NCBI RefSeq assembly: GCF_000024885.1
Contig: NC_013512.1
Location: 1,922,001-1,986,000 of the forward strand
Source: Sulfurospirillum deleyianum DSM 6946
GTDB lineage: Bacteria; Campylobacterota; Campylobacteria; Campylobacterales; Sulfurospirillaceae
Reading direction: 5' to 3'
DNA length: 64,000 nucleotides
Part shown: piece by piece, positions 25,297 through 30,014 of the stretch
Layout of the letters: the number at the start of each line of letters is the position of its first letter
Position numbering within the stretch: the stretch's first letter is position 1
Translations under genes and position numbers: made by a program
Notes under the pieces: model-generated
What the model saw: only the letters and a program-made list of their open reading frames with translations
Database searches by the model: none
What the model was told of the DNA's origin: nothing

Positions 25297-25791
25297 TTAT
25301 TTCACCGCATACGCCTCATCTTTATGATAACCCTTAAATTCACCCACCTGAATTTTACTTAAAAGCTGCCATCTTCCCTCTTTTTCAATCGTAAAAGGAC
25401 CAAAGGTATAAAGACCTTTCTCCACACGAGAGGGGCGTAAGGTTTGATTCTCTTTATTGGTTTCAGGACGTGAAAGCATCAAGGTGATATCCGCATTTTC
25501 AACGACTTCGCCACGTTTCGTCGTTAAGCGAAGGGTGATCTCATTTTGACCTTTGTGAAACTTCTCAGAAGAGTATGCCAGTGTAAAATTGGCATTGAAT
25601 TTTTCTTGAAGCTCTAAGATTTCGTTAATGTTTTCATCGACATTTTGGTATTTTTCCATGTAGTACGTATCCATTTCAACAGGATTATCCAAAGCAATCT
25701 TAATGGTATAACCACACGCTATCACACACCCAATAATCATCCCTACTACCGCATGTGGGTAATAATTTCGCTCTGTTTTTACTTTAGACAC
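25297..25791 (-). CDS. FixH-family membrane protein
   Basis: 164 residues. One membrane segment (about 13-33) is followed by a periplasmic beta-rich domain, matching the FixH/CcoG-associated family (FixH: copper delivery or assembly help for cbb3 oxidase). The first GMIIGCVIACGYTIKIALD stretch and the later LRPSRVEKGLYTFGPF fit the fold. It overlaps the upstream TPM-like gene by 8 bases and is the last gene of the cco cluster. Its role in oxidase assembly is inferred from family and location. Confidence 0.8.
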   Translation of the reverse strand: MSKVKTERNYYPHAVVGMIIGCVIACGYTIKIALDNPVEMDTYYMEKYQNVDENINEILELQEKFNANFTLAYSSEKFHKGQNEITLRLTTKRGEVVENADITLMLSRPETNKENQTLRPSRVEKGLYTFGPFTIEKEGRWQLLSKIQVGEFKGYHKDEAYAVK

Positions 25792-26383
25792 GTTTTTTCA
25801 TCCTTCGATAGAACATCATCAAAACCAAAATCCCAACAAACCCATAAATCCCAAGTTTGATAAAACTTAAGGTTGTTTTATTGGCACTTCCAATAGAACT
25901 TGCTAAAACAATTTTCTTAGACGCTGCGATTTGATCAACAATATCTGCATAACCATTGAGCAAAGCCGCACTCACACCCACCTCATTTTTCTTCGTGGTT
26001 AAAAGCGGAATAATCGTCCCACGCCACGGCAAAGGAGATAAAATAGCCTCTTTATCAAAAAGCGATTCAAGCCCTTTAGAGTGATAAATATCCACTTTTT
26101 TCTCTTCCAAAAAAAGCGTTAAAAGCACAAAAGGTGTCTCTTGTGTTTTCGCAAATGTTTCACCAAAATTGACGATGGACTCACCACCTCTCTCTTTGGC
26201 AACCAAAATCACTTTAATACCGCTTTTTTCAAAGAGCTCTTTTCCCATTTCATCTATCTTTTGCGCTGTTCTCTCTTCTAAAATCGCATCCGATTGAACA
26301 AAATGAGACTCCATGGCAAAAAGCGGTACAAAGGCAAAAAGAGCGCTAAAAAACGCCCTTTTTACCTTTACATGTAAAGCCAT
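25784..26383 (-). CDS. TPM-domain-like membrane protein in the cco cluster
   Basis: 199 residues. An N-terminal signal or membrane segment (about 8-24) is followed by a periplasmic domain. It resembles a degenerate TPM (YgcG-like) domain: KIDEMGKELFEKSGIKVILV, then a region ending with LLNGYADIVDQIA. A C-terminal membrane helix (about 172-190) and a basic tail close the protein. The start at 26383 follows the stop of the 34-residue ORF by 5 bases. Longer readings to 26428 overlap that ORF and lack an SD. A palindrome copy at 26368 forms codons 3-6. A role in oxidase assembly or stability is inference from position. Confidence 0.65.
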   Translation of the reverse strand: MALHVKVKRAFFSALFAFVPLFAMESHFVQSDAILEERTAQKIDEMGKELFEKSGIKVILVAKERGGESIVNFGETFAKTQETPFVLLTLFLEEKKVDIYHSKGLESLFDKEAILSPLPWRGTIIPLLTTKKNEVGVSAALLNGYADIVDQIAASKKIVLASSIGSANKTTLSFIKLGIYGFVGILVLMMFYRRMKKRV

Positions 26384-26388
26384 TTTCC

Positions 26389-26493
26389 TTAACCAATGAA
26401 CAGATGATTGGGAGTAAGTACCGCCCACGCTGTTACAATCGCTAAAATAATAAGCCCTGCTGTAATGATTTTATCCATATTGTCTGCCATCAT
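26389..26493 (-). CDS. 34-residue single-membrane-span peptide in the cco operon
   Basis: A short ORF translating as MMADNMDKIITAGLI, a hydrophobic helix (IILAIVTAWAVL), then TPNHLFIG and stop. It overlaps the end of the DUF4006 gene (ATG within AAATGATGG) and has an excellent GGAGGGA site 5 bases before the first ATG; the second ATG is an alternative start. The next gene begins 5 bases after its stop. The tight spacing, SD and membrane span make it a credible small oxidase accessory subunit, like CcoQ, CydX or CcoM-type peptides. I know no named family for it. Confidence 0.65.
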   Translation of the reverse strand: MMADNMDKIITAGLIILAIVTAWAVLTPNHLFIG

Positions 26494-26717
26494 TTACTCC
26501 CTCCTGACGTCTCAATCACTTTTTGCGTCGCATTTTGTGTATCTCGCATTTTAATCGCTTGAGGATCTGTCAATTTATACGGTTTATCCGCAACAACTTG
26601 TTGCGCACTAATGCCCCATATCGTCAACCCAGCTAAAATAGACAATAGTAAAACAGTTGCAATCAACATCCCTGTGATGCCATTGAGACCAAAAATGTTT
26701 CGATTGGTATTTTCCAT
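26490..26717 (-). CDS. DUF4006 family protein
   Basis: 75 residues: a short N-terminal tail (NIFGLNGITGMLIATV), one transmembrane helix (about 14-36) and a hydrophilic C-terminal region. It matches DUF4006, a small family known to me from the cco clusters of Campylobacterota. It begins 9 bases after ccoP. Function is unknown; position strongly suggests a role in cbb3 oxidase. Confidence 0.8.
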   Translation of the reverse strand: MENTNRNIFGLNGITGMLIATVLLLSILAGLTIWGISAQQVVADKPYKLTDPQAIKMRDTQNATQKVIETSGGSK

Positions 26718-26726
26718 CTTTTATCC

Positions 26727-27575
26727 TTATTTTGCTAATGAGCTAACATAGGTGCCAACGGCTGTTTTTTGAACATTGCTTAAGCGACCATCGTTAAATT
26801 TAGGCATATTTCCAATAGCGCCTTTTTTGCCTGTTCCTAAAACATTCACTACAAATTGCGCACTGCCATAGGTACTTAAATCAGGAGCGCTTCCTGCCAT
26901 ACCTTTTCCATCTTCACCATGACACGCCGAGCATGTTGCCCAAAGTGCACGACCCTCTTCAACAAGGGCTGGATTCTTCGTTTTTTTGACGCTCGAAATT
27001 TCTTGCATCATAAATGCCGCCACTGCTTTTGCACTTTGCTCATCCAACAATCCTGCTGGCATTTCACCCAAAGGATACTCTGAGCCTTTTGCACCATTCA
27101 CAATGGCGTGAACAACAGCTGCTTCATTGCCCCATTGCTCAAGATTTGCCGCTTTTCCATTAATACCATCACCCGTAACACCATGACAAGGAGCACATTG
27201 AACAAGAAAGATGCCCTCACCCATTGCCATCAGTGTTGCTTTATCAGGATTGGAGAATTTACTCTCAAACTGTGTCGTATGACCTTTAACCTCATCATTA
27301 TACTCACCAATTTGTGAATATGAATTGAGAGGATACCCTACGAAAAAGTACCATAATGCCCAAATCATAGTACCTAAAAAAGAGAGCGACCATCCAATAG
27401 GGAGAGGATTTTTATACTCACCAATTCCATCCCAATTCTCTTTTGTTAACTCTCCACTGCTTTTGTCGGTTTTCATCTGTTGAATGTACTTCCAAGACAC
27501 ACCGATGGTGAGAATTAAAATTGCTGCGGCACCAAGCAATGCCAATACGTTTACATTGTCATTCAGCCAATTCAT
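26727..27575 (-). CDS. ccoP: cbb3-type cytochrome c oxidase subunit III, CcoP (diheme)
   Basis: 282 residues. There are two membrane segments (about 9-29 and 62-82) joined by NWDGIGEYKNPLPIGW. A periplasmic region carries two c-type heme motifs, CAPCHG near residue 127 and CSACHG near 217. It passes electrons from soluble cytochrome c to CcoO and CcoN. The length and two hemes are usual for CcoP. It follows ccoQ in the operon. Confidence 0.96.
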   Translation of the reverse strand: MNWLNDNVNVLALLGAAAILILTIGVSWKYIQQMKTDKSSGELTKENWDGIGEYKNPLPIGWSLSFLGTMIWALWYFFVGYPLNSYSQIGEYNDEVKGHTTQFESKFSNPDKATLMAMGEGIFLVQCAPCHGVTGDGINGKAANLEQWGNEAAVVHAIVNGAKGSEYPLGEMPAGLLDEQSAKAVAAFMMQEISSVKKTKNPALVEEGRALWATCSACHGEDGKGMAGSAPDLSTYGSAQFVVNVLGTGKKGAIGNMPKFNDGRLSNVQKTAVGTYVSSLAK

Positions 27576-27588
27576 CTATTGCTCCTCT

Positions 27589-27798
27589 TTATTCTTTCTC
27601 TTTATTCGACGGTGTACGGGATTCAACTGGAGCATCGTCAAGATTATCATGCAGAGCAATATTAGAATACTGCTCATAGTTTCTTGTACCTTTTTTTTCA
27701 GCCTTATACAAATGATACAAATAGCTGTACAAAATGACGGCTAAAAAAATCGTAAAAAAGATATAACCATACGCTTGAAGCTCTCTAATTGTTTCCAT
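27589..27798 (-). CDS. ccoQ: cbb3 oxidase subunit CcoQ
   Basis: 69 residues: one transmembrane helix (about residues 10-30, YGYIFFTIFLAVILYSYLYH), then a charged tail. CcoQ stabilises the oxidase complex. The in-frame GTG at 27813 would start one base after the ccoO stop; I prefer the ATG at 27798, preceded by GGTGA, because the resulting protein has the usual short N-terminus. The gene lies between ccoO and ccoP. Confidence 0.85.
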   Translation of the reverse strand: METIRELQAYGYIFFTIFLAVILYSYLYHLYKAEKKGTRNYEQYSNIALHDNLDDAPVESRTPSNKEKE

Positions 27799-27814
27799 AT
27801 TCACCGTATGCACC

Positions 27815-28480
27815 TTATTTTAAGCTGTTAAGATAGGCAATCATTGCCACAATCTCTTTAATCTCGCCTCGTTTGAAAGCCTCTTTAACCTCAGAATCTT
27901 TCATATCTGCCACAATCAAAGCTGCCTCTTCCATGAGTGCTTTTTTTGCTTCATCATAGGTTCCAAGTTTAGGCATATCTGGCTGATCATAAGGAACATT
28001 AAAGACTTTTTTAACGGTTAATGCTTCAGCATACGCTGTCTCAATATCCGTATTATTTTTAAACATATGCTTATACGCTGGCATGATAGAGCCAGGAACA
28101 ACACTTTGAGGTGCTAACATATGGTACTCGTGCCAATCGGTTGTTCGATAATTTCCAACCCGCATCAAGTCAGGACCCGTACGTTTACTTCCCCAAAGGA
28201 ATGGTCGATCATACGCATATTCACCGCTTAAAGAGTACATACCATAACGGTCTGTTTCAGATTTAAAAGGACGAACCAACTGTGAATGGCAAGCATTACA
28301 GCTATCTTTAATATAGATTTGACGTCCCGCAAGTTCCAAAACCGTATAAGGTTTTGTACCTGTTACAGGACGAGCACTCTCCATAAAGTCTGGAAGAATC
28401 GTCACAACACCCGCATAAGCAATCACCAAAAAGACACCTACCGCAAAAAAGAATGGGTTTTTTTCTAACCAATGAAACAT
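27815..28480 (-). CDS. ccoO: cbb3-type cytochrome c oxidase subunit II, CcoO (monoheme)
   Basis: 221 residues. One N-terminal membrane anchor (about 8-28) is followed by a periplasmic cytochrome c domain with heme motif CNACHSQLVRPF near residue 60. The heme axial Met is probably in GSIMPAYKHM near residue 128. It transfers electrons from CcoP to CcoN. It starts 16 bases after the ccoN stop. Confidence 0.97.
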   Translation of the reverse strand: MFHWLEKNPFFFAVGVFLVIAYAGVVTILPDFMESARPVTGTKPYTVLELAGRQIYIKDSCNACHSQLVRPFKSETDRYGMYSLSGEYAYDRPFLWGSKRTGPDLMRVGNYRTTDWHEYHMLAPQSVVPGSIMPAYKHMFKNNTDIETAYAEALTVKKVFNVPYDQPDMPKLGTYDEAKKALMEEAALIVADMKDSEVKEAFKRGEIKEIVAMIAYLNSLK

Positions 28481-28495
28481 AATTCTACCCTCCCC

Positions 28496-29962
28496 TTACG
28501 CTGCCATAGGTGAAGCATTTTGAGGTTCTCGCTCAATCGCTTTACTTACAGTCATGGTTTTATATAAATTATACGCAAACATAAAGAAACCAATTAAATA
28601 CAACAATCCACCTGTCGCACGAAGCGCATAGTAAGGAATGAGTACGGTTACGGTATCAATGAAAGAGTATGCAAGATTTCCGTATTGATCCGTTGCTCTC
28701 CACATCATACCCTGTGTAATACCTGCAATCCACATGCTAGAGAAGTACATCACGATACCTGTGGTTTGAATCCAAAATTGAGATTCCATCAATTTTTTAC
28801 TGTAAAGTTCACGCTTATACATACGTGGCGCCATATGATACAAGGCTGCCATGGTCATAAAGCCAACCCAGCCCAACGTACCATCATGAACGTGACCTGG
28901 AATCCAATCCGTAAAGTGTGCTAACGCATTAACCGATTTAATCGCTTGAATTGGACCTTCAAGTGTACTTAACATGTAAAAGGTTGAAGCAAAAATCATA
29001 AATTTAATCAAAGGATTCTCTTTGAGTTGACCCCATTGTCCTTTCATGGTTAAAAGCATATTAATCGCACTACCCCATGATGGAAGAATCAAAATAATAG
29101 AGAAAATAGAACCCATTGTTTGAACCCAATCAGGCACCGTTGAGTAGAGTAAATGGTGTCCACCTGCCCAAAGGTAAACAAACATCAAACCCCAAAATGA
29201 AAGAAGAGATAATTTATAAGAAAAAACTGGCTGACCTGATTCTTTTGGCAAGAAGTAATAAATCATCGCAATAATAGGCACGGTGAAAACAAACGCCACA
29301 GCGTTATGTCCATACCACCATTGAACCATCGCATCATTGGTTCCTGCATACATGGAAACAGAGTGATACCATTTACCCATACCCGCAACAAAATAAGTTG
29401 GAACTTCCATGTTATTGAAAAGATAGAGCATTGCCACACCTAAAAAGGTTGCGATGTAGTACCACATAGAGATATAAAGTGTTTTTTCACGTCTGATACC
29501 AATCAAACCAAAAATACTAATACCCCACATAACCCATACCACAACCACAGCGATATCGAGTGGCCATTCTAGCTCTGCGTACTCTTTAGACGTACCAATA
29601 CCCATAAACAAAGTCACAACTGCCACAAGAATTGTGATCATATAAATCCAAAAATGAAGTCGTCCGACAATCATCAAAAATGGAGATTCTGCCATAGAAA
29701 CTTTAAGCACACGTTGCCCAACGTAGTACCAAGTAGCAAAAATTCCACTCAACAAAAAGCCAAAAATAACCCCTGACGTGTGAAGTGGTCTTAAACGACC
29801 AAACGTGCCATATTCACCCGCTAAATAATTCAAATCTGGAAACGCCATCTGATAGGCAATAACAACACCTATTACCATACCAATGATTCCAAATAGAATC
29901 GTTGCGTAGGTAAAACATTTCGCTACGGAATAATCATAGTTCAATGCATGATTAGCCTGCAT
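28496..29962 (-). CDS. ccoN: cbb3-type cytochrome c oxidase subunit I, CcoN
   Basis: 488 residues, about 12 membrane helices, the catalytic heme-copper subunit. Visible metal-binding segments are LHTSGVIFGF (heme b ligand), WWYGHNAVAF (CuB His), GGHHLLYS (two CuB His) and HVHDGTLGW with the following His (heme ligands). It reduces O2 to water with high affinity and pumps protons. The ATG at 29962 has AGGAGG 5 bases upstream; a TTG one codon earlier is less likely. It is the first gene of ccoNOQP-DUF4006-small ORF-TPM-fixH, promoter at 30015-30020. Confidence 0.97.
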   Translation of the reverse strand: MQANHALNYDYSVAKCFTYATILFGIIGMVIGVVIAYQMAFPDLNYLAGEYGTFGRLRPLHTSGVIFGFLLSGIFATWYYVGQRVLKVSMAESPFLMIVGRLHFWIYMITILVAVVTLFMGIGTSKEYAELEWPLDIAVVVVWVMWGISIFGLIGIRREKTLYISMWYYIATFLGVAMLYLFNNMEVPTYFVAGMGKWYHSVSMYAGTNDAMVQWWYGHNAVAFVFTVPIIAMIYYFLPKESGQPVFSYKLSLLSFWGLMFVYLWAGGHHLLYSTVPDWVQTMGSIFSIILILPSWGSAINMLLTMKGQWGQLKENPLIKFMIFASTFYMLSTLEGPIQAIKSVNALAHFTDWIPGHVHDGTLGWVGFMTMAALYHMAPRMYKRELYSKKLMESQFWIQTTGIVMYFSSMWIAGITQGMMWRATDQYGNLAYSFIDTVTVLIPYYALRATGGLLYLIGFFMFAYNLYKTMTVSKAIEREPQNASPMAA

Positions 29963-30014
29963 CAATTCCTCCTGTTTGTCTTTTTATGTCACAAAAATAT
30001 CACATAATGGAGAA

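Follow-up and report, generated by a model that had tools for sequence, protein, structure and literature searches.

The closest described counterpart of the gene considered here is found in Campylobacter jejuni, where three genes between ccoP and ccoH were reported to be required for normal activity of the cbb3-type oxidase (PMC8267372). These are cj1486c (ccoX), which encodes a single-helix DUF4006 protein and was reported to be essential; cj1485c (ccoY), named in 2021, which encodes a protein of only 33 residues whose central part is a transmembrane helix; and cj1484c (ccoZ), which encodes 200 residues of the DUF5130/TPM type (PMC8267372). Deletion of ccoY lowered Cco activity, which added copper did not restore, and the phenotype of the ccoZ mutant was partial and similar to that of the ccoY mutant (PMC8267372). 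Nine supercomplex proteins were identified by mass spectrometry in that study, and CcoY was not among them. As cj1485c is listed as a gene for a ‘putative periplasmic protein’ in a transcript table (PMC7099621), it had been annotated before it was named. The main text of a Ribo-seq census (PMC11955535) contained no match to Cj1485c, and no later work on CcoY was found in the open-licence literature. Small single-span proteins accompany other terminal oxidases as well: CcoM of the Pseudomonas stutzeri cbb3 oxidase is required for stability, not for activity (PMC8267372, introduction), and CioY, of 34 amino acids, is the partner of the bd-type oxidase CioAB in C. jejuni (PMC11955535).

We analysed a window of 64,000 nucleotides from the genome of Sulfurospirillum deleyianum DSM 6946, which consists of one contig of 2,306,351 bases. 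On the minus strand, the window contains ccoN, ccoO, ccoQ, ccoP, the DUF4006 gene, ccoY, a gene for a TPM-domain protein and a FixH/CcoH-like gene, in that order, so that ccoY is placed between ccoX (DUF4006) and ccoZ (TPM), downstream of ccoNOQP. The features are:

28496..29965, minus strand: ccoN, catalytic subunit (TIGR00780, E 5.3e-218 in its own genome)
27815..28480, minus strand: ccoO, assigned by position and a CxxCH motif in the translation
27589..27813, minus strand: ccoQ (TIGR02736, E 2.5e-26; PF05545, E 6.5e-16)
26727..27575, minus strand: ccoP, dihaem cytochrome c subunit (TIGR00782, E 2.2e-46, under the cut-off of that model; PF14715, E 1e-18)
26490..26717, minus strand: ccoX, single-span DUF4006 protein (PF13179, E 6e-32), with a 4-base overlap with ccoY
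26498..26504, minus strand: Shine-Dalgarno-like GGAGGGA of ccoY, read from the letters, with sites of the AAGGGG/AAGGAG type in the corresponding position of relatives
26389..26493, minus strand: ccoY, single-span membrane protein of 33-34 amino acids, start at 26493 or 26490
25784..26383, minus strand: ccoZ, TPM-domain protein with hydrophobic helices at both termini (PF04536, 21.4 bits, slightly below the cut-off of 22.1; the model is matched by 11 of 16 ccoZ orthologs)
25297..25791, minus strand: ccoH/FixH-like gene (PF05751, E 9.5e-10), overlapping the end of ccoZ

The sequence-only reading of the window had proposed a 34-residue membrane peptide that overlaps the DUF4006 stop, follows a GGAGGGA site and is separated by five bases from the next gene, and the letters bear out each of these placements. 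The TGA of the DUF4006 ORF (26490-26717) lies inside ATGATGG, which gives the 4-base overlap; in the GGAGGGA at 26504-26498 (minus strand), GGAGG forms the core, at a distance of 6 nt to the first ATG and 9 nt to the second one; and between the stop codon TAA (26391-26389) and the ATG of the TPM-domain gene at 26383 lie the five bases GGAAA. Only the length needs qualification: from the first ATG, positions 26389-26493 (minus strand) encode the 34 residues MMADNMDKIITAGLIILAIVTAWAVLTPNHLFIG of the ORF as listed, but the start in most relatives corresponds to the second ATG (M-A/V-E/D-N-M) or to the third (M-D/E-K), and 33 residues are therefore as likely as 34. The single membrane span was likewise confirmed, with a maximum 19-residue Kyte-Doolittle mean of 2.43 that ranks second among the 235 ORFs of 29-40 amino acids in the window, and an AlphaFold2 model predicts a helix at residues 2-26 followed by an extended tail; both hydropathy and model indicate a protein of about 33 residues that crosses the membrane once, by a central helix. 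We also note that the ccoZ frame stays open for about 40 bases into ccoY (26384-26428, minus strand) and contains a GTG codon there. Gene calling that favours the longest ORF could stretch ccoZ across ccoY and mask it, and the same offset is common to many relatives.

To relate this ORF to Cj1485, the C. jejuni gene was located through its printed primers. A ccoY primer from PMC8267372 matched 8 of 49 genomes of one genus with at most 3 mismatches, 3 of them exactly, and one of these genomes (G132) carried exact matches for 9 of the 11 distinct primers of the cj1484c-cj1486c set. Of the two others, 1484 F1R differs in a homopolymer run, and a 1484 screening primer (labelled so on our reading of a flattened primer table) had no match in the 3-kb locus. 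The 1485 F1R and F2F primers abut the two ends of a 33-codon ORF in G132 that is matched by our ccoY profile A1 (E 3.1e-12). Cj1485 as read from this genome is MSKALEYLIVIGLVAAAAITAWSVLTVNHLHIG, 33 amino acids long as published, and its neighbours and their order are the same as in the window. BLASTP of the window peptide against it gave 16 of 33 identical residues (48%; E 8e-11 for this single comparison), by which the window ORF is, as judged from its sequence, the ortholog of C. jejuni ccoY. The two proteins share a length of 33 amino acids, one span, the order ccoX-ccoY-ccoZ-ccoH and an AW-VLT-NHL-IG tail; the loci differ in that ATGA overlaps flank ccoY on both sides in C. jejuni, whereas here ccoZ starts 5 bases past the ccoY stop. 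The description of the peptide as unlisted is thus correct insofar as no Pfam or NCBIfam model covers ccoY, but not for C. jejuni, where it is annotated (Cj1485c) and named. The gene is largely known already and ordinary in kind.

The same primers bear on how the published genetics can be read. In G132, the ccoX stop and ccoY start overlap, as do the ccoY stop and ccoZ start, each as ATGA. According to the printed primers, the downstream flank of the ccoX deletion begins just inside ccoY and so removes the ccoY start codon, and with flanks at -1 and +102, the ccoY deletion takes out the ccoZ start codon. At each of the two junctions, the cassette end contained in the primers leaves a GTG in frame, but no ribosome site at a suitable distance from it. 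The authors argue that the cassette keeps polar effects limited, as genes downstream of it are transcribed (PMC8267372); translation of those genes is a separate matter. No genetic complementation of ccoX, ccoY or ccoZ was found in PMC8267372, in which all four matches to ‘complement’ concern the ccoNOQP strain or copper. Since each deletion also deprives the overlapping gene downstream of its start codon, the role of CcoY itself is not cleanly established, and since the ccoY deletion lacks the ccoZ start and the ccoZ mutant has a similar phenotype, CcoZ may account for all or part of the lost activity. The ccoX and ccoY phenotypes may therefore not be cleanly those of single genes. The evidence that full cbb3 activity needs CcoY comes only from C. 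jejuni, a genus other than Sulfurospirillum, and carries this caveat about the alleles.

Since chance alone yields many ORFs of this length (99 with 25 or more amino acids were listed around the region), we relied on conservation in relatives to decide whether ccoY is a gene. DUF4006 was present in 35 of 41 genomes (the host genome and 40 relatives), and in 29 of the 30 loci fetched it was immediately followed by a small hydrophobic ORF that has a purine-rich site ahead of it; in the 30th (L030), ccoG comes next after DUF4006 and the small ORF then follows ccoG in the same genome (L131). Loss of the ORF from close relatives that share the gene order had been named as the observation that would count against the gene, and no such loss was seen, all 23 loci of the genus having an intact ccoY. 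Among 298 genomes of the phylum, profile A1 matched 221 at E<=1, of which 42 were weaker than 1e-3, leaving 179 at E<=1e-3. The genomes missed by the profile belonged mainly to a Helicobacteraceae-like family, so the positions after DUF4006 were read directly; counting profile matches alone would have understated the distribution of ccoY. In all 50 Helicobacteraceae- and Arcobacteraceae-like loci returned by the searches (30 from 60 genomes searched and 20 from 41, respectively, the family names being our reading of coded groups), an ORF of 30-39 residues with a single span stands after ccoX (DUF4006) and before a ccoZ-like gene, in most cases with a clear ribosome site. In hhalign comparisons, A1 aligned with the Arcobacteraceae-like set at a probability of 98.5 and with the Helicobacteraceae-like set at 79.6, and the Helicobacter-type counterparts are likely, though not certain, to be homologous to ccoY. 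A further 19 loci had ccoY directly after DUF4006 in 14 cases and after an inserted ccoG in 3; one of the remaining two is cut by a contig end and the other (L121, in genome G263) has ccoX with no such ORF directly after it. In L121, repeated TAGATTCTAT-like stretches occupy the usual place of ccoY after DUF4006.

The distribution of ccoX follows that of the oxidase: ccoN and DUF4006 were each found in 286 of the 298 genomes, both in 285 and neither in 11, with one genome lacking only ccoN (G020) and one lacking only DUF4006 (G250). G250 has ccoN and no match to DUF4006 or ccoY, and in its assembly of 150 contigs loss and an assembly gap are indistinguishable. No ccoY match below E 0.1 was obtained in the 11 genomes that have neither ccoN nor DUF4006. 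Weak matches in family f16, which has no cbb3 in the sample (21 genomes, best E 0.0747), lay mostly within longer frames and were attributed to chance. In the one pattern scan that reached outside the phylum, the 80 matches listed of 159 were titled as Campylobacterota taxa or generically. What is new here is the ccoX-ccoY pairing in 50 of 50 loci, the co-occurrence of ccoX and ccoN, and the start-codon loss in the published deletions.

Gene order was examined in 118 loci, in 111 of which a script found ccoY by its motif; of the seven misses, one locus ends before ccoY, one meets a contig end and five have variant tails with visible ORFs. As 80 of the 118 loci had been fetched by the ccoY motif itself, partly overlapping the earlier genomes, they bear on gene order and not on frequency. 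The upstream neighbour in the 111 loci was ccoX in 107, ccoG in 3 and none in 1 (contig end), and the downstream neighbour was ccoZ in 108 and another gene in 3. Where ccoG stands between ccoX and ccoY (L128, L129 and L131), ccoY adjoins ccoZ; in L191, L210 and L212, two from Candidatus Thiovulum and one from another lineage, ccoY follows ccoX and ccoZ lies elsewhere in the genome. In T. stygium, ccoZ is about 3.7 kb off on the opposite strand, as judged from coordinates. Because ccoY stays with whichever partner remains, it behaves as an independent gene.

In spite of the abundance of chance ORFs, an accidental origin of this ORF has practically no probability left, as it is contradicted by the phylum-wide conservation, by the ribosome sites and by a test of coding constraint that refutes it: among 22 unique core sequences, pN/pS was 0.235 in the ccoY frame versus 0.45-2.74 in the other five frames (uncorrected, with pS at 0.69, close to saturation), differences at codon positions 1/2/3 numbered 1705/581/3502, and the observed third-position share was reached in 0 of 20,000 column permutations. 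Thus, ccoY is a real, conserved gene, tied to cbb3 by position. The tight or overlapping spacing, with ATGA on both sides in C. jejuni, would suit an ORF that merely couples translation of ccoX to that of ccoZ and whose peptide is of no importance; the strong constraint at the protein level and the retention of ccoY where ccoX or ccoZ no longer adjoins make this highly improbable. An even slimmer chance attaches to CcoY being a member of a small-subunit family of known structure, such as CcoM, CcoQ or CydX. It equals these in size and in having a single span, but the peptide is covered by no Pfam or NCBIfam family, and profiles A1 and A3 had no match in the PDB at E<=1, although the library includes cbb3 entries, 5djq among them. 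CcoQ/FixQ, also a small single-span protein of this operon, has its own Pfam and NCBIfam models (PF05545 and TIGR02736), which match 27589-27813 and not the ccoY ORF. CcoM is likewise a small single-span protein of a cbb3 oxidase, whereas no relation of CcoY to any chain of known structure could be detected by sequence. CioY and CydX resemble CcoY as single-span terminal-oxidase partners of about 34 amino acids in the same phylum, but CioY belongs to the bd-type CioAB and not to cbb3. Matches to CAAD, pilin-like, PsbN, SecE and other Pfam or NCBIfam models were far under the cut-offs where shown and inconsistent among members, and these, like a PDB match to a topoisomerase (8sjh, E 1.2), were ascribed to composition. 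The proposal of a small membrane protein tied to the cbb3 oxidase is thus backed by conservation, synteny and the published C. jejuni mutant, and its likening to CcoQ, CcoM or CydX is plausible but unproven, with no sequence match to a solved chain and CcoY absent from the supercomplex list.

We take CcoY to be, most likely, an accessory subunit of cbb3 with a single helix or an assembly clamp of this oxidase, and its topology, binding partner and mechanism we infer as follows. CcoY would be a one-helix inner-membrane protein with a short periplasmic tail, TPNHLF/YI/VG, and its N-terminus is probably inside, since the sole conserved positive charge, the Lys of MDK/MEK, is N-terminal; as the C-terminal side is also charged in Arcobacteraceae-like members, this orientation is tentative. 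Its Trp-bearing helix would pack against the oxidase core or CcoX, and together with CcoX and the TPM-domain CcoZ it may stabilise the oxidase after assembly or the contact that the oxidase makes with the cytochrome bc complex, a role that could be likened to that of CcoM, CcoQ or CydX in their oxidases. The CcoZ model (pLDDT 83.7) gave Foldseek matches to TPM domains with E down to 2.2e-05, Psb32 included, and weaker ones (E 0.0045-0.078) to chains of mycobacterial bcc-aa3 supercomplexes, in agreement with the published modelling of CcoZ on Msmeg_4692 (PMC8267372). With CcoZ modelled as TPM-like, a one-helix CcoX reported to be essential and a one-helix CcoY, the simplest picture would be that the three make up a small membrane module whose task is to stabilise cbb3 or to link it with the bc complex. 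A transient assembly factor, which with CcoZ builds the oxidase or supercomplex and then leaves, is possible but rather unlikely. It would explain the resemblance of the CcoZ model to TPM proteins such as thylakoid TLP18.3 and Psb32, the latter titled a PSII assembly factor, the partial phenotype reported for both the ccoY and ccoZ mutants of C. jejuni, and the absence of CcoY from the supercomplex proteins reported there, among which a 33-residue membrane peptide is easily missed. However, TPM-like chains are present in mature mycobacterial bcc-aa3 supercomplexes (6hwh, 6adq, 8ovc and 8hcr), and ccoY is sometimes not beside ccoZ. On balance, we consider it probable that this gene, as the ortholog of ccoY, encodes a one-helix protein packing on cbb3 or CcoX and stabilising the oxidase or its bc contact. 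A broader proposal, doubtful when taken as a whole, is that CcoX, CcoY and CcoZ would form a phylum-specific module that goes with nearly every cbb3 oxidase of the Campylobacterota, Helicobacter included, and binds the oxidase to the cytochrome bc complex with CcoY as a minimal clamp helix, and that the reported essentiality of CcoX may partly reflect lost translation of CcoY.

The useful additions made here are the phylum-wide pattern and the allele overlap. The removal of the following gene’s start codon is a clear reason to redo the sole genetic test of CcoY’s role that we found. Beyond C. jejuni, a barely studied protein of about 30-38 residues accompanies the cbb3 oxidase across a phylum that includes the Helicobacter family, and in Helicobacter cbb3 has been called the sole terminal oxidase (PMC3120642).
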